A stretch of 24,153 nucleotides of DNA from a virus, in the IMG/VR virus record IMGVR_UViG_3300020416_000065, positions 1-24,153 of that record. One strand, 5' to 3'. The translations under genes were made by a program, and so were the position numbers. Position 1 is the stretch's first letter; the number at the start of each line of letters is the position of its first letter. This document shows positions 2,989 through 15,383 of the stretch, piece by piece. Below the pieces are notes generated by a model that ran no database searches, was not told the origin of the DNA, and worked only from the letters and a program-made list of their open reading frames with translations.

Positions 2989-3978
2989 TCACGTTGTACT
3001 ATTTTCTAATATGCTGCCAACAAATTCCATTTCTAATGGTGCAACAAATCCACCATTCATACTTTGTCCTACATTGACTCTAATTGTTGTTGCATTAACT
3101 CTAGCAACATTCAAATTCTGTCCAGAAGCTGGATCTGTTGAACGTGGATATGAGTGTTCGGTTGCTCTATTATCCATAGAACATGTGAATATGAAAGAAT
3201 TATCTGCCAATTTCACTTTATCATTATTTTGAAGATTCATTGAAGGAAGAGTAATTGTCATTTCACCCGAAGTTGGATTATATGATGCATTTGAAGGAAG
3301 ATACTTTGTACCTACTGTTACTGTACTACTTACCATAACTTCAACAGCATTAGGTTTACACCTTTCAAAGTAATGAATAGCAGGTTGATATATGTGAGGA
3401 TATCCTTTAGATACACCAACTTCAGCAGTAAATGTTTTTGAAGTACCTACAGTACCTTGAATACTATCAATTATAAATGATTGTTGTGGATCTGGGAAAA
3501 TTGTAGTGGTAATACCAGTACTTCCAGTACATGAAAAACTAATTCCACTCAAACATATAGGATCACCAGCATTTAAGTTATGAGCAGCTGCAGTAGTAAC
3601 TGTAGCTATTCCAGATGGTTCATGATATGTGACATTAGTTATGATACCAACATTCTGTTGTGTTCCTTTTATAAAAATCTTATCTAAAACTAAAGGTGTT
3701 TTCTCTAACACCATTCTACCATCAACTATAATTACAGCATCATTTGGTGGTATTTCAACATCTTCTATAACTTTAATATCTCTTGTATTACCAGTACTTC
3801 TTGATTCCCTTCTTTGTATAAAAGTAACAGTTGGGTATGTATTTCCAGCACCAACATGTGCTACTTGTGCATACAGCAAAAGAGCAGAAGTTCCTGTAGG
3901 TACTTCATAAAGTTCTTGCATTCCTGGTGCAACAGGAACTGCTAATGATATAAACTTATTGACTGGTGCTATTGCCAT
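2989..3978 (-). CDS. Virion structural protein with fibre-type beta module
   Basis: A 329-residue protein I cannot assign to a named T4 gene. Residues 1-110 look like a compact beta domain (it includes the stretch [17 protein letters not shown]). Residues 231-304 contain the same module as the neighbouring fibre: [11 protein letters not shown], then FTCSMDN...HSYPRSTDP, then VNVG. This shared module, and its place between the 1146-residue structural protein (stop 4 nt upstream) and the collagen-like fibre (start 1 nt downstream), suggest an adaptor or short fibre subunit at the baseplate periphery. It has no signal peptide or membrane segment. The function is inferred from context and the shared module only. 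Confidence 0.75.
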
Positions 3979-3981
3979 ATT

Positions 3982-6900
3982 TTATCTCAAAGCTAGTATT
4001 AATGGGGTTAATTGTGCCTGAATTGCTCTGTTAAAGTCTCTTCCTCGGATTGTTGATGTAGTTTGGTCAATTGTCAAACCATCACCAATTCTAAAGTTAC
4101 CTTTTTGATCGGTACTAGTGAATGGAACTTGTCCTCCATTCTTGGCAATAACTTCATTTTCAGGTCTAGGTTTTCCACCTTGGAAGGGGTTAGCTGTATT
4201 TAGGTCTGTACCAGCACCAATATATTCAAATGAATGTGAACTGGTTATAATCCTACTTAACCTTACAAAATCAACTCTTGTTGAAGCATTGAGATTATAA
4301 GGAATAAATTCATTAAAAGTTACTGAAGATATTCCAGTTGGATGATTTGCACCATCTGTTGCATCACTCACAGTATATAGAATTGGATCAGTATCAACTT
4401 CTGCAGTTGCTGCTCCACCACCAGAAATTGATACTACCAAATTCTGTGTAGGTAAGAAATTCCTTCCACTATTAATAACATCAATAGAAGTAATTGTTCC
4501 TGCAGCACTCACATTAGCAGAAAATTCTGGAAGAATACCTTCAGGTCCTAATGGATCTGGAAGATTATTATTACCACTATCAAGAACCGTAATAATTGGA
4601 GGTGCTCCAGCATTATAATCACCAGGATTACCACCATTAGTAATTTCCAATGATCTAATTTGTTGTAATGGTTCAGTTATTGTATTTGTGGCAGGAGTAT
4701 CATTATATTGACTTAAATTCAAATGGAAATAAGCACCTTGACCATCAAATGGTGTCCTATTATTATTACCCTGATCTTGAGTATTATTAACAACTACGGT
4801 ATCAGTTTCAGCTTCAGTTGTAGTTAATATTGTACCATCAAATTCAACAGAACCAAAACCATCTGCTACAAGACCTTTATTACCAAATGAACTGTTAGAG
4901 TTTGTTAGATCACATTGTCCACCTGAAGAACAGAATATACCAATATCACATCCAATAGTGAATATAGAAACCAACTGTGCATATCCATTATTTGTAAGTG
5001 ATACTCCAATACCATTTTCATTATATTGTGTAAATGAATCACAAACAAAACTCTTAATATCCTGTCCTAAATTATTTGTTCCACTGAAAGCAGCATCACA
5101 ATGATTACCATCAATTCTCATACCAATGCTACCAGTCATAAAGTTAGTACAGTTTCTAATATAAGGACTCTTATATCTACCAGATGCACCTTCATTAGCA
5201 GGTCCTAATATTGCATATCCACTAACTGCTTGGAAATTTTTTCCAGCATTAACATCTGCTAATGTTGGTGGAAATGCAGCAGCAGCACATCCAGGATGAT
5301 TCACTGCAACACTAGAACCAGCAAAACTCAAATTTTCTACTAAACATCCTCTTCTAACATGGAATACATCTCTATTTGCATTATTTGGAACTATAGTAAC
5401 TAATCTTAAATCTTCACCACTAATTGCAACATCAGTTCTTAATCCAATTGGATTATTCTCATTATAAACACCAGAACGAACTTTAACAGTATCACCCTCT
5501 TGTGCTATTGCAGCTGCTGCAGCAATAGTATGTTTTGCATCACCTTCTAATAATCCACTATTAGTATCACATCCATTCTTTGTAACCCAAATAGTTCTCT
5601 TTGTTTGAACACCAGAAGGTCTCCAAGATACACCAGCACCAACTCCACCTACGTTAAATGATGATAATCTATAATCAGTCTTACATGCACCAACACCTTC
5701 ACTATTAAAGAAGTCGGTTAACTGACTTTCTAGTTCTAAATCACCAAATATTGTTGCTTTTTGACCTACATTTAGATTCTTCTCAATACCAACACCACCT
5801 TCTACAATTAATGCACCATTATCTTTAGTAGTTGATTGTGTACCATCTTCAACTTTTGTAATTCCACCAACAAATAATTTCTTGGCAATACCAACACCAC
5901 CATCAAATACTGCTGCTGCATTCCCAATACCAGATGCATCTGTTGTGTCATTAGCAGTAATAAGTCCATCTACATCAAGTGCAGCATTTAAAGAAGTATC
6001 AGCATCTACATTTAACGTTGAATCAAAATCAACAGCACCACCTACATTTAATCTCTTAACAATACCAACACCACCATCAATTTGAACTGAACTTGATGAA
6101 GTGGGACTTGTTGAATCTGTTTGATCATTAAATGTTGTCTTACCATCAACATCAAGTAAAGCATTAAAAGTAACATTACCATCTACATTTAATGTTGAAT
6201 CAAAATCAACATCACTAGTCGCATGAACGGTTCCAGTTATATCTAAAGTAGTAGATGGATTATTATTATTAATACCAACCTTAGTCATCCTATAGATTGG
6301 AGAATCATTATCAGTATTAGTGTGTCCCCAATAATCTTGAGTTTGTATCCTAGCAATCGCTGTAGGATTATTTGGATCAGGTATAGGAATTAATGTATCA
6401 GTTCCTAGACCAGCACTATTTTTCTGTGTAAAGTTTAGAGTTGAAAAGAGTTGAGCAGAACCACCAATGGGTAATGTTACATGCTCATCTTGTACAAAGA
6501 ATCCATCTTGATTAACAGGAGATGCTACTACCCATCTAACACCATTACCATCTCTCTTTAAGTAATTACCATTAGCACCATAAGAATCAGCAGAGTCTAT
6601 TATATGACGATCAATCTTTACACTACCATCTACATTTAATCTTATTTTGCCATCAGCAGAAGGATTGTATCCAGAAACTGTAATACCAGTAGGATCTGTA
6701 CTTCCAATTCCAACACTACCACCTTCAGTAACTACAAATACATCATCACCAGTATTAATTTTAAATTGAGTTGGATCAGTATAAGTCTCAAATCCTGTAG
6801 TTCCTATGCCAACTTTCCCTGCAGTAGTAACAACAAAGGATGACTCTCCACTTTCTCCAATTTCAAACCTACCTGCAGGTGTAGTAGTTCCTAATCCAAC

Positions 6901-10056: not shown

Positions 10057-11369
10057 TTTGCTTTACGTCCTAAAGTGTCTCTGAATAAAGTTAATTTGGT
10101 ATAAGATCCTGAAGTGTCAAATTGATGGCATAATTCTTTAATCATATATGAACCACTTTGATCTTCACTAACATCAGATCTATCTTCCATATCAATTTTA
10201 GGGAACTTACATTTAATAAGACCACCTGCCCTTAAACTAGTATTTAACGGAATTAACATACTTGCAGTATGAGTCATCAATAAATTATATCTCATCATAG
10301 ATTGAGAATGTATTTTAGTCGGATCTGCATTTTCTGCTATTGAAGCACCTCTTTCCATTGTTCCAATATCCATAACAGCAGTTATATTTCTACTTGGTAT
10401 GTCACCCAAAGTTTTATCATCATTCTCACTTAATGAAGGCAAAGTAATTTTTGCACCCATATTTTTAGTCTTTCCAGCATAATTTTCTAGTTTAAACAAA
10501 CCCTTTTCAGGATTAGTATATGTAAAATTCAATGGATTAAAATATATTCTATGACTACAATATGCACCACGTTTTAATTGCTGCATTAAATCTTGATTCT
10601 TACTAGCTTGGAAACTAAGTACCTTAAAATCATTACCATCGTCATTAGCAACAACACCAGATGAATATTCATATTCATTCTCATGTGGTTCTTCTTCAAT
10701 CAACTGATCAATAGATTTGAATTTATATCCATCTTGAGTTTCGTAAAAGAAATATCCAGCAGTAGCATCTTCTCCTGATACTGTTCCTGGAACACCTTTT
10801 GATGCTAACCACATAAGAACAGTAAATGGTTTTCTCAAATTACCAAGAAATCCATAAGGATTTTGAGTTTTATCACATTCAATTTCCTTTTCAGTTTTTA
10901 AATACTTTTTAACTATATCTTTTACACTATCTGATATAGAGGAAGATGCTGGATATTTTTTACCAACTCTAGAAGTCTCATTAGTAATTGCTTCTCTGGG
11001 AACTAAATTCAATATAAAAGATTCCTGCTGCTCATCTATTAAAACATTATTAACACTTTTAACATGCCAGTATAATGATGATTTGGAGAAATCCAATCCT
11101 TCATTTAAATCACTATTTCCAGCAATCTTCATAACTACCCTTTCACCACCCCTTAATGGTAAACCATCATATATGGTAGTCATCTTACCATCCTTACCTT
11201 CAATGGTATCACCAGTATTAACTACCATTATCGAAGCAGTTATATTAGGAGAAAAAATATCCTCATAATACCTAATTTGTGTGACACCAGCAGATATATC
11301 AACAGTTTTACTACCGTCTGCTGATTCTATTACAATCTCTTCGTATTTTGATGGATCTATTGCTGCCAT
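10053..11369 (-). CDS. 27: Baseplate hub protein, gp27-like
   Basis: A 438-residue protein (T4 gp27 is 391). In T4, gp27 forms the trimeric ring joining the tail tube to the gp5 spike. Features typical of this family are an N-terminal beta domain (VDISAGVTQIRYYEDIFSP, SIMVVNTGDTIEG) followed by a second tube-like domain (GYFFYETQDGYKFKSID, and TASMLIPLNTSLRAGGLIKC near the C-terminus). The gene is coupled on both sides: its start shares TAATG with the preceding gene's stop, and its stop overlaps the gp5-like start. The order tape measure - gp27 - gp5 fits hub assembly. I am confident of the hub assignment, less so of one-to-one orthology. Confidence 0.82.
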   Translation of the reverse strand: MAAIDPSKYEEIVIESADGSKTVDISAGVTQIRYYEDIFSPNITASIMVVNTGDTIEGKDGKMTTIYDGLPLRGGERVVMKIAGNSDLNEGLDFSKSSLYWHVKSVNNVLIDEQQESFILNLVPREAITNETSRVGKKYPASSSISDSVKDIVKKYLKTEKEIECDKTQNPYGFLGNLRKPFTVLMWLASKGVPGTVSGEDATAGYFFYETQDGYKFKSIDQLIEEEPHENEYEYSSGVVANDDGNDFKVLSFQASKNQDLMQQLKRGAYCSHRIYFNPLNFTYTNPEKGLFKLENYAGKTKNMGAKITLPSLSENDDKTLGDIPSRNITAVMDIGTMERGASIAENADPTKIHSQSMMRYNLLMTHTASMLIPLNTSLRAGGLIKCKFPKIDMEDRSDVSEDQSGSYMIKELCHQFDTSGSYTKLTLFRDTLGRKAK

Positions 11370-12895
11370 TATATGAATGCGGATTCTAGTTCTTGAAGGG
11401 TCTTTATAGTACTATTTACACTAGATTGACTGACCCCCATTGCCTTTACAGATTTTGGTACTTGTACAGTTGTCGACCCAGAATTTATAGATTTAGTAAT
11501 AGTTTTAATTATCATCGTTGTTTTAGGTTTTCTTGACGTTGTAAATTTACCTATTTGAGAATTTATTTGTTTCATCATTGGTTGAATATTCATTTCTTCA
11601 GATACAGATTCAATATCTTTAGTAAATTCACCAATAGGGAAATCACCTAATTTATCAAAAGGCAATTTACTAATTTGATTCATAGCAGAATTTATACCAC
11701 CCATCATCTCTTCTTCATTAAAATTCTTCTTAACTTGACTCATAGCCTGCATTGGAGAGAATTTACCACTATTAAACATTTTTAAAAATTCTTTATTTTT
11801 CTCTGCTATTTGTTTCTGTACAACAAATTCACCTTTAGTTAATTTTGCTGCAATCTGATCTATTCCTCCTCGACCTTTAACTTCACCACCTTTATTAAAC
11901 TTCTGAACCTCATTTTCATCTTTTACTGCATCATTAATCTCATTTTGGGAAATTCCCTTAACATCAATTTCTTTAGCATCAGGTCCTTCTTTTATAGATT
12001 CTTCATCTACATTAGTCTGTTCTCCTTTAACCTCTTCATTATTTTCCTCACTCTTTGTATCTTCATCACCTTTATTATCCTTCTTTTTATTCGGAACTAT
12101 ATCTAAAAAATCCCACCACTGATTTTTTTCTTCTTCAGGAGGGTTAAGTTCATCTTCACCAGATTCTGGTGTTGTTTCTTCACCTTCACCTTCTCCCTGT
12201 TGATCATCCTCCTCTGTACCATCTACCTCATCAGGAAACTTTTGCCAAGAATCATCATTATATGCCTGTTTAGGGTCATTAAATTGATTTAAAGAATCAA
12301 CAAGATCAGTTTCAAATTTTAGAAAACCTTCCTGAATCTTTTCAGTGTTCCTAGCAATATCTTCTTGAGGTTCCCTCCAATTATATCCCCTAAGAGTATT
12401 AATAGACTTGAACAAAAATCCACCAATACCAACAACTACTTTCGTTAATATATTAATAAATCCCCCCATAATATTTGCAACAAATTGCATCTTGCTCATC
12501 AACCCTTGTATTGTTTTAATTATTTGGGGTAATCTAGTAACCATCCACCCAATTAAAATAATACCAAAGAAATCTAATATTCTACCAAGAAATCCCTTGG
12601 TACTTTTACCTAAAACACTTCCTTGTCTTTTAATAACACCACCTACTGTTGATGCTTCAATTTCATCCTCTCTTTGTCTTCTACGAACTGCTTCTCTTCT
12701 TTTTCTAAAAAATGATCTATCTTTACTAATCAAAGATCTTTTAAATTTATTGTCTTCATCTGTTTGTCTAACGATTTTAGTTGCTGTTTTTTGAGCACCT
12801 TTCATCCCTTTAGTGAAATTTGAAACAGATTTCCTCAAACTATCAATACTGATAGATGATTTAAGTAAAGCGTTTCTAAGTATTTGCTTTGACAT
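11369..12895 (-). CDS. Tape-measure-like protein 2 (hub-associated)
   Basis: A 508-residue protein. Residues 1-85 are basic and probably helical. A hydrophobic segment at about 100-165 begins LDFFGIILIGWM. Residues about 220-330 are a strongly acidic, low-complexity region. Residues 333-360 contain FNKGGEVKGRGG...LTKGEFVV, which resembles the GG-x-V-x-G...LT/SPGEFVM signature common near the C-termini of phage tape-measure proteins. The second hydrophobic stretch and the 'GW' motif resemble the gene directly upstream (start 1 nt after that gene's stop), so the two look like divergent tandem paralogues. T4 has a single tape measure, gp29. Either this is the tape measure and the upstream protein is a companion, or both are placed inside the tube. 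A gp29-like name is plausible but unproven. Confidence 0.7.
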   Translation of the reverse strand: MSKQILRNALLKSSISIDSLRKSVSNFTKGMKGAQKTATKIVRQTDEDNKFKRSLISKDRSFFRKRREAVRRRQREDEIEASTVGGVIKRQGSVLGKSTKGFLGRILDFFGIILIGWMVTRLPQIIKTIQGLMSKMQFVANIMGGFINILTKVVVGIGGFLFKSINTLRGYNWREPQEDIARNTEKIQEGFLKFETDLVDSLNQFNDPKQAYNDDSWQKFPDEVDGTEEDDQQGEGEGEETTPESGEDELNPPEEEKNQWWDFLDIVPNKKKDNKGDEDTKSEENNEEVKGEQTNVDEESIKEGPDAKEIDVKGISQNEINDAVKDENEVQKFNKGGEVKGRGGIDQIAAKLTKGEFVVQKQIAEKNKEFLKMFNSGKFSPMQAMSQVKKNFNEEEMMGGINSAMNQISKLPFDKLGDFPIGEFTKDIESVSEEMNIQPMMKQINSQIGKFTTSRKPKTTMIIKTITKSINSGSTTVQVPKSVKAMGVSQSSVNSTIKTLQELESAFI

Positions 12896-12896
12896 C

Positions 12897-14486
12897 TTAT
12901 GCTAATGCCACCCCATAGAATTTTGCTGCAAGAAGTTTAGGATTCTCTGAATCTGATGCAGGTATTATAGGAAGAGTATTCCCTTTACCACCCGATTTAC
13001 CACTTCTACCAGGTGAAGGTGAAGGTGAACCACCGTCACCAATATTAATCAAAGCTGGAGGTGGTTCCTGTAAAGAAGAAATATTATCTGCAACATTCAC
13101 ATCCCTTTTCTTTGGTTCTAATATACTACCTCTTTTATCAAGATCAAATGCATTACCAGTTATAAAATCACCAACTCCAGCAAGACCTCTCATAAACCCT
13201 TGGGGTTTCTTTGATTCATTTGCTAATTCTCTTTCTCTAATAAGATCTTCATCTGATATTGGAGTCATCATTGCTGGCATAATATTTCCACTACCACCTT
13301 CAGACTCTAGGATTTCATCAATAGTTCTATCATCCGATACACCTGATGTATTTCCATCTTCACTGGAACCAATCATTTCAATTCCTTGCTGATTTGGTGT
13401 TCCAATCATATATCCAGTATTACGAAGAGTTTCAAAAGTAAGGAACTGTCCTAATATCCTTTTCCATCCCGACAGATTTTTTCCAACAATAAATGCACCA
13501 CCCATAGACATTAAATTGACTAGAGCAGCAGAAACAGGATCTCTACCTGATGCAACATCAAGACCAGTAGAAATTAAACCAGTAGTCATTAATCCACCAC
13601 CACCAGTAACTTTTGGATCTCCTGATATACCTCCTTTGGTCATTCCTGGTTTTTTACCACCACCCATGAATGCACCTTTAACCCAATTCATAGGTTTCTG
13701 CAACCATTTCACAATACCAGGTGCCTGTCTTGCAGCAGTTGTTGCTACTGATCCACCAACAGCTTTTGTTATAATACTATATGCTAAATTAGCAGCTTTA
13801 CCAAATAAACCCATTAAGGCTTTCATTGGTCTTAATATCATTCCACTTCCAACAGCTCTAAAAATACTGCCTGATATAGAGACTAATAACCTTGTTAAAC
13901 CCTTTAATGCTAAATTTATTCCAAGAAATATTCCACCAATAGTCAATAAACCACTAACAATATTGTCACGAATCTGATTCATTAAATCAATATTTCCTTC
14001 AGACTTCGCCCTCAAAAATTGAATAACTTTACTACCCAACCATCCAGCTAATATTACACCAAAGAATTGACCCAACCTACCCAATGTAAATTGTGCTTTT
14101 TGTGATATTGCTTGAACTGGTTTTAATAAAGCACTCTGTATTCTCTGCTCTACTGCTCCTTCTTTTCCTTCTCTTAATCCTTGTTCTGCTAATTGTGCCT
14201 CTCTTGCTTGTTCAGCAGCAGCTCTTTGTCTCTCTAACTGTGCTTGAACTCCTAAATTGCTTTGTATATTAGATAATGAAAAATTTAATTGACCAATTTG
14301 TTGGGATATTGATGCAAGTTGTCCTGAAACTGAAGATAAAGCAAATGAATTTTGAGACAGCAAATTCGTCGTAACTGGATCTGGTTGTGCAGGTGCAGCA
14401 GGTGCAGCACCAGTAAAAGCACTAGAAGAAACTGTTCTTCTAACTGCTTGTATTCCTCCTGATATTGGTGATTGTATCTCAGCCAT
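12897..14486 (-). CDS. Tape-measure-like protein 1 (possible gp29 counterpart)
   Basis: A 529-residue protein (T4 gp29 is 590). Residues about 40-120 form a heptad-like, Gln/Ala-rich coiled coil (SGQLASISQQIGQL, LERQRAAAEQAREAQLAEQ). Residues about 136-215 are hydrophobic, starting LGQFFGVILAGWL, with further Gly-rich hydrophobic stretches to about 350. The C-terminal 150 residues are polar and Gly/Ser/Pro-rich. Coiled coil plus hydrophobic membrane-inserting stretches is the usual tape-measure build. It lies immediately after gp26 and the gp51-like gene, whose stop overlaps this ATG by 8 nt; this is the position of lambda H after G/GT. It resembles the next gene in its first hydrophobic segment. 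Which of the two sets tail length cannot be decided from sequence alone. Confidence 0.7.
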   Translation of the reverse strand: MAEIQSPISGGIQAVRRTVSSSAFTGAAPAAPAQPDPVTTNLLSQNSFALSSVSGQLASISQQIGQLNFSLSNIQSNLGVQAQLERQRAAAEQAREAQLAEQGLREGKEGAVEQRIQSALLKPVQAISQKAQFTLGRLGQFFGVILAGWLGSKVIQFLRAKSEGNIDLMNQIRDNIVSGLLTIGGIFLGINLALKGLTRLLVSISGSIFRAVGSGMILRPMKALMGLFGKAANLAYSIITKAVGGSVATTAARQAPGIVKWLQKPMNWVKGAFMGGGKKPGMTKGGISGDPKVTGGGGLMTTGLISTGLDVASGRDPVSAALVNLMSMGGAFIVGKNLSGWKRILGQFLTFETLRNTGYMIGTPNQQGIEMIGSSEDGNTSGVSDDRTIDEILESEGGSGNIMPAMMTPISDEDLIRERELANESKKPQGFMRGLAGVGDFITGNAFDLDKRGSILEPKKRDVNVADNISSLQEPPPALINIGDGGSPSPSPGRSGKSGGKGNTLPIIPASDSENPKLLAAKFYGVALA

Positions 14487-14661
14487 TGTTGTTTGCTTGT
14501 TGTGCCTTCAGATTTTCCTCCTCAACATACTGTTGTAAAAGAGAAAGATAGATCTCTCTTTCCCACGGAATCATATTTTCTAGCTCTGTCAAGCTATATT
14601 TATGATGTTGCATCAAGGCAAAATTTATCTTATAGTATGACTCAAGATCTTCATGAGCCAT
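14479..14661 (-). CDS. 51: Small tail/hub assembly protein, gp51-like; likely also the -1 frameshift extension of gp26
   Basis: A 60-residue acidic helical protein (MAHEDLESYYKINFALMQHH; then LTELENMIPWEREIYLSLL). Small proteins of this type are annotated as gp51 in marine T4-like phages, as best I recall. The L-x-x-M-x-x-W-E pattern also recalls the T or E' segments of tail-assembly chaperones in other phages. The ATG is 2 nt after the gp26 TAA (TAAGTATG), so reinitiation could make the free protein. The reading frame continues open upstream of the ATG into the slippery site of gp26. A -1 slip would append R-V-S plus this whole protein to gp26, giving a fusion of about 301 residues. The stop overlaps the ATG of tape-measure-like protein 1. 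Confidence 0.7.
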   Translation of the reverse strand: MAHEDLESYYKINFALMQHHKYSLTELENMIPWEREIYLSLLQQYVEEENLKAQQANNNG

Positions 14662-14663
14662 AC

Positions 14664-15383
14664 TTACCCGAAAAAACTCTGTAACCCCTCTAGAACAACC
14701 TCATTTTCCTTTTTAGTATTTGGATTAATTACCTTAACAGTATGTGATAATTTAGGCATGGTATCAAAGAATTTTTCAATTTCTTTGAATTGTGATGAAT
14801 TTAATTGTTCAACGAATTGAGACAATTCTTTCTTTGTACAGTCAGATGCTGCCCAAGATTCCTCTTCAGAATAAACTTGTTCAATACAAGAAGAAATCAA
14901 ATCAAAAGTATCATCGACATTAATATCACCAGAAGCATTAAAATTGTTTTTGATAAATTCATCCAATGAAGGATACTTCATTCTTAAAGTATATTCATCA
15001 TCCAATTTAATATCCTGACTGTGCTCATCACTAATTTGAATTTTTATATCATCCAGCATAATGCGAGTAGGAACTTGTGTTTTACCATCATCAGGACAAG
15101 TAACCATAACTTCAACATCCTCACCAATAGACTTTCCTCTAATATTGAGGAAAAGAAATTCAATATCAAAGGTTGATAATTTATCGACTTTAATTCCTCT
15201 ACTTAAAATACAGTTTGAAATAACATCTTTTACTGCACTAGCAATTTGAGAGTTATCTTGACTCTCCATTGCTAATATTAAAATCTTTTCTTCTTTTACA
15301 AGAAATGGTCTAAATTTAACTTTCTTTTTAGATGAAGGAATTACTAATTCATACGACGGAGTCGCTATCTTGGGTAAAGGCAT
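14664..15383 (-). CDS. 26: Baseplate hub / tail-assembly protein gp26
   Basis: A 239-residue protein. Its N-terminal signature, YELVIPSSKKKVKFRPFLVK followed by EEKILILAMES, is that of the T4 base-plate protein family to which gp26 belongs in marine T4-like phages. The middle has a MVTCPDDGK segment (the corresponding CP-x-x-C pattern is reduced to a single Cys) and helical C-terminal acidic regions. In T4, gp26 is needed for hub assembly. Its position directly before a small gp51-like gene and tape-measure-like genes, and the slippery site at its last codons, argue that it plays the part of lambda G in tail assembly. A CTAAATA late-type box lies 26 nt before the ATG; no strong ribosome-binding site is visible. 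Confidence 0.82.
   Translation of the reverse strand: MPLPKIATPSYELVIPSSKKKVKFRPFLVKEEKILILAMESQDNSQIASAVKDVISNCILSRGIKVDKLSTFDIEFLFLNIRGKSIGEDVEVMVTCPDDGKTQVPTRIMLDDIKIQISDEHSQDIKLDDEYTLRMKYPSLDEFIKNNFNASGDINVDDTFDLISSCIEQVYSEEESWAASDCTKKELSQFVEQLNSSQFKEIEKFFDTMPKLSHTVKVINPNTKKENEVVLEGLQSFFG
14670..14676 (-). other. Programmed -1 frameshift site (slippery heptamer T TTT TTC)
   Basis: In the gp26 frame the codons read AGT TTT TTC GGG TAA. The last T of AGT plus TTT TTC is a canonical X-XXY-YYZ heptamer. After a -1 slip the frame reads CGG GTA AGT ATG GCT, entering the gp51-like ORF without a stop. GAGGGG (14685-14690) lies 8 nt upstream, in the position of the stimulatory Shine-Dalgarno of E. 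coli dnaX. A weak 6-bp stem (GGCTCA/TGAGTC, 9-nt loop) starts 11 nt downstream. The frame relationship was checked by coordinates: gp26 codons begin at positions equal to 2 mod 3 and the downstream ORF at 0 mod 3, which is -1 on this strand. Confidence 0.7.

Follow-up and report, generated by a model that had tools for sequence, protein, structure and literature searches.

A gp26-like gene and a small open reading frame (ORF) adjoin one another in different frames in the window analysed here, a 24,153-nt stretch of DNA from a marine T4-like phage (positions 1 to 24,153 of IMG/VR record IMGVR_UViG_3300020416_000065), and the locus raises the question of whether they are two genes or one. A first-pass annotation had proposed that a −1 programmed frameshift joins them, as in the G/GT tail chaperones of lambda. 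Comparison of the locus with its relatives leads us, with strong confidence and on firmer evidence than the annotation had claimed, to the same reading: the two ORFs would be a single gene that yields two products, TAC-N and TAC-NC, by a predicted −1 frameshift. A frameshifted tail chaperone is a known trick of tailed phages, and the sequence and RNA-structure evidence for it is unusually clear here.

Arrangement of the locus

The gp26-like gene (14664..15383, minus strand, as are the features below) encodes the 239-aa short product, TAC-N, and matches PF12322 (T4_baseplate, E = 2.8e-75) and phrog_150 ('baseplate hub', E = 4e-82). Its 3′ end was read correctly in the first-pass annotation as GAG GGG TTA CAG AGT TTT TTC GGG TAA, containing an SD-like GAGGGG (14685..14690) that lies, as had been stated, 8 nt upstream of the slippery heptamer T TTT TTC (14670..14676), and the zero-frame stop TAA that ends the short product (14664..14666). 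The −1 frame is indeed stop-free from upstream of the heptamer to a TGA at 14481-14479 and contains a 60-aa ORF from 14661, so that the fusion, TAC-NC, would have the proposed length of 301 residues (238 + 3 + 60). This 60-codon C-terminal extension (14479..14661) is a conserved protein family, matching phrog_634 (E = 3e-28), the C-terminal end of phrog_150 (positions 239-278, E = 1e-7) and the C-terminus of T4 gp51. The weak stem that had been placed 11 nt downstream of the heptamer needs correction: folding of the window RNA (z = −3.0) gives an 11-bp stem-loop (14634..14664; arms 14664-14654 and 14644-14634) whose first paired base is the final base of the stop codon, leaving 5 nt between stem and heptamer, and that shows covariation.

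The next gene, a 529-aa ORF at 12897..14486 (minus strand), is probably a tape-measure-type client, judging by its position and by several relatives, in which the next ORF matches PHROG tape-measure families. The window's own 529-aa protein has no PHROG tape-measure match, and no homology was found between it and T4 gp29. It shares a paralogous segment (blastp E = 4e-7) with the product of 11369-12895 (minus strand), and together the two are possibly a split or duplicated tape measure. Among the relatives, S-PM2 has one 1167-aa ORF directly after the C domain. At the far end of the window, a large minus-strand ORF (3-2987) with long collagen-like GPP/GPQ repeats is cut by the window end.

Relationship to T4 gp26 and gp51

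The window locus belongs to the same gene family as the TACs of T4-like phages, gp26 and gp51. In T4, each of the two products has its own gene. These genes lie on opposite strands, and the gene after 26 is gene 25. The window, by contrast, has one locus with a predicted frameshift. The shorter T4 protein, gp26 (208 aa), consists of just the N domain, and gp51 (249 aa) has an N domain (PF12322, residues 1-201) joined to the C part (phrog_634, residues 147-246). What cyanophage annotations call 'gp51' therefore corresponds to just the C domain of the T4 protein. The second ORF of the window, labelled 'gp51-like' in the first-pass annotation, likewise matches only the C-terminal part of T4 gp51 and is not a whole gp51. 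At the sequence level, the window locus and T4 gp26/gp51 both have a short and a long product that share the N domain.

T4 gp26 and gp51 are listed as hub assembly chaperones, of which gp51 is needed for assembly and absent from the finished particle, while the status of gp26 is debated (PMC3004832). The proposed role as a G/GT-type chaperone gains support from this listing, from the T4 pair being a natural N+C fusion and an N domain alone, and from the position of the gene ahead of a tape-measure-like ORF.

We compared the AlphaFold model of the window's gp26 (pLDDT 87.5) with that of a T4-like gp51, modelled as a natural N+C fusion in place of the window fusion. The order of secondary structure is nearly the same in both, with three more C-terminal helices in gp51. 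A fold search with the gp26 model ranked HK97 2OB9 9th and 11th (probabilities 0.66 and 0.51, but E about 1.8) and YqbN 3KLU 34th; neither structure was among the 50 matches listed for the T4-like gp51 model, and a sequence search with gp26 against solved structures gave no match. These modelled folds are only suggestive of a weak link to solved chaperones.

Conservation of the slippery heptamer

The first-pass annotation had staked its proposal on this boundary in relatives, which do keep the heptamer together with its position and the −1 relation of the frames. Across 136 gp26 loci, a sample that includes the window and leans to close relatives, 127 carry T TTT TTN in frame at a matching place near the stop and have the C-terminal domain in the −1 frame. 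The heptamer is TTTTTTC at −10 in 120 of these 127; the others have TTT or TTG endings, or positions −7/−13. The pattern NNT TTT TTC GNN stop is kept in all 79 of the closest IMG/VR relatives whose sequence extends to the stop codon, and 19 of 24 rows retain the heptamer after dereplication at 60% aa identity. Very distant gp26 proteins have no conserved stretches for an alignment-wide search.

The heptamer and the −1 relation are found together in Aeh1, CC2, KVP40-like, Cr30 (duplicated as L094), pf16, phiM12, RHph_Y68, Yut2, X1, LPCS28, HTVC008M, P-HM2, S-RSM4, S-PM2 and others. The hosts of such phages are Synechococcus, Prochlorococcus, Pelagibacter, Aeromonas, Vibrio, Caulobacter, Pseudomonas, Rhizobium, Sinorhizobium, Stenotrophomonas, Xanthomonas, Cronobacter and Acinetobacter. 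The exceptions are the T4-type phages T4 and Melville, with split genes; K444, D532, YC (present twice, the duplicate being L098), 207E48.1 and Menlow, which are Ackermannviridae or resemble them; and Thornevirus LIS04.

Some of the variant junctions have features of their own. In Ackermannviridae and similar loci (L087, L089, L090, L131, L132, L139 and L140), the C domain lies in the −1 frame without a canonical heptamer. All loci of this type carry N NNT TTY at the shift point, and most have a TAATG overlap; Menlow is without the ATG. Downstream of gp26 (3971-4699) in Listeria phage LIS04 (L093), the C-domain-like frame is +1 (or −2), a frame relation hinting at a different shift.

Selection on the flanking RNA elements

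Selection at the RNA level is evident on both sides of the heptamer. Downstream, the stem's pairs are kept in 93.9% of pair cells in 69 related sequences, versus 25-47% when the partner is slid. One pair covaries (UA in 32, GC in 17 and AU in 16), being paired in 65 of the 69 sequences. A gp26 tree that leaves out the junction requires ~12 changes at this pair, of which about 8-8.5 are independent double changes altering both sides at once. Covariation is confined to this one pair, the other stem pairs being mostly invariant. One of its sides is a silent third base (Ala/Ser), and the facing side sets E, A or V in the C domain.

The hairpin is not universal, because the mean fold z is −3.2 in the window's clade versus −0.8 in the other IMG/VR clade; RNAalifold found no shared hairpin in that second clade. 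Two loci of the window's own clade (L077 and L078) have CCCTCTCCCAC in place of the ATG of the second ORF, and the 5′ arm of the common hairpin is also broken in them. We suggest, tentatively and as something possible rather than probable, that the hairpin of the P-SSM2-like clade dictates part of the chaperone sequence, with E/A/V in step with the silent base, and that the Ackermannviridae use their unusual N NNT TTY site in parallel.

Upstream, the Glu codon of the EGL motif is GAG in 77% of cases versus 30% elsewhere in the gene, and the adjacent Gly codon is GGA or GGG in 81% versus a background of 41%. This codon bias shows synonymous selection on the putative SD-like GAGGR, and is consistent with an SD-like stimulator as in dnaX. 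The locus accordingly has a heptamer in a conserved position, an open −1 frame with a conserved domain, and candidate stimulatory elements, of which the hairpin is found only in the window's clade.

Start codons of the second ORF and alternative readings

The two ORFs could instead encode separate proteins, if ribosomes stopped at the TAA and reinitiated at an ATG to give gp26 and a free 60-aa protein, with the T-run a chance product of coding FF. In the window, an ATG for the second ORF follows the stop by 2 nt, and therefore a free C domain could be made by reinitiation there; most close relatives have this ATG as well, and the public records of P-SSM2 and S-PM2 annotate the C part as a separate CDS. 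However, near the junction, the second ORF is without any ATG, GTG or TTG in 29 of the 136 loci, and in 7 others the choice is limited to GTG or TTG; L077 and L078, inside the window's own clade, are without a start codon. Accordingly, public annotation truncates the C part (P-HM2, 30 codons plus stop; HTVC008M; S-RSM4) or omits it (CC2, Aeh1, LPCS28, Menlow, SH-Ab 15599). The ATG also sits within the conserved hairpin, T4 gp51 has its C domain fused to N, and the T TTT of the heptamer is fixed while the preceding amino acid varies. We rejected separate genes as the main route because of the missing start codons, and consider this reading very improbable. Both routes might operate together, with the frameshift fusion accompanied by some free C domain from the ATG where a lineage has it. 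The ATG is invariant in the 69-sequence set, while the other clade has CTC there, but its pairing with CAT in the stem explains this conservation equally well, and no consistent SD was found close by the ATG; a dual route is unlikely, though not far-fetched.

A poly-T run could also arise by chance in AT-rich phage DNA, with the frame relation an accident of tight gene packing. TTTTTTC alone is in fact not enriched in the window (10 versus about 12 expected), but the combination of an in-frame heptamer at most 10 codons from the stop and a −1 frame that stays open over 140 nt or more occurred in 0 of the 763 further ORFs of these loci. Phages whose codon usage is less AT-rich, among them Yut2, X1 and pf16, keep the heptamer as well. 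The codon before TTT is AGT, TCT, AAT, GCT or GAT, so that the amino acid varies (S/N/A/D) and the final T is invariant, and the TTT codon itself is fixed versus a background of 68% (log10 P about −5.7, treating as independent 19 rows that are not). Conservation refutes an origin by chance, which we rejected on the control ORFs and the codon data and to which we give a negligible probability.

Discussion

The data favour one frameshifted gene, and from them we infer frameshifting itself, its rate and the client of its products. Most ribosomes would stop at the TAA and release the 239-aa TAC-N, while some would move back by one base at T TTT TTC and produce the 301-aa TAC-NC, aided by the upstream SD-like GAGGGG and the downstream hairpin. 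By analogy with lambda G/GT, the task of the N domain during assembly may be to coat the tape measure or to hold parts of the hub; the C extension may bring in subunits of the tail tube or baseplate, or else bind the tape measure.

Xu, Hendrix and Duda reportedly described, in 2004, the lambda gpG/gpGT case as a conserved tail-gene frameshift. The window locus would likewise yield a short and a long product through −1 slippage, just ahead of a probable tape-measure gene, but its heptamer, T TTT TTC, comes with SD-like and hairpin elements. In E. coli dnaX, the heptamer is A AAA AAG and the shift makes the shorter product. Its three-part signal, an SD-like sequence, a heptamer and a hairpin, resembles that of the window, whereas the predicted shift in the window yields the longer product.

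The first-pass annotation hinted that the arrangement was undescribed, which is wrong in part. The general idea had already been published, since Vladimirov, Gautam and Davidson are said to have identified the tail assembly chaperones of T4-like phages in 2022 (doi 10.1016/j.virol.2021.11.003). The Adele paper credits them for poly-T −1 signals in the TAC-N genes of T4-like phages (PMC12846349), and according to the PRFect paper the short gene of some T4-like phages is complemented by a longer, separate gene for the fusion (PMC10885494). As these citing papers already mention poly-T signals and split genes, novelty is limited to the details and range of the signal. We found no published report of the hairpin, the SD-like selection or the start-codon loss, with Vladimirov et al. 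represented by its title and the papers citing it. In the TAC locus of the Vandenendeviridae, too, the −1 frame is conserved, a poly-T lies close to where TAC-N ends and the C part is often mis-annotated, but its invariant motif is GTTTTT and the phage family is a different one (PMC12846349).

In these loci, gp26 and 'gp51' are thus predicted to be one frameshifted chaperone gene. T4 makes both products from two separate genes, which renders the transition from a frameshift to split genes testable. A stem that controlled how much long chaperone is made relative to the short one would give tail assembly a tunable element.
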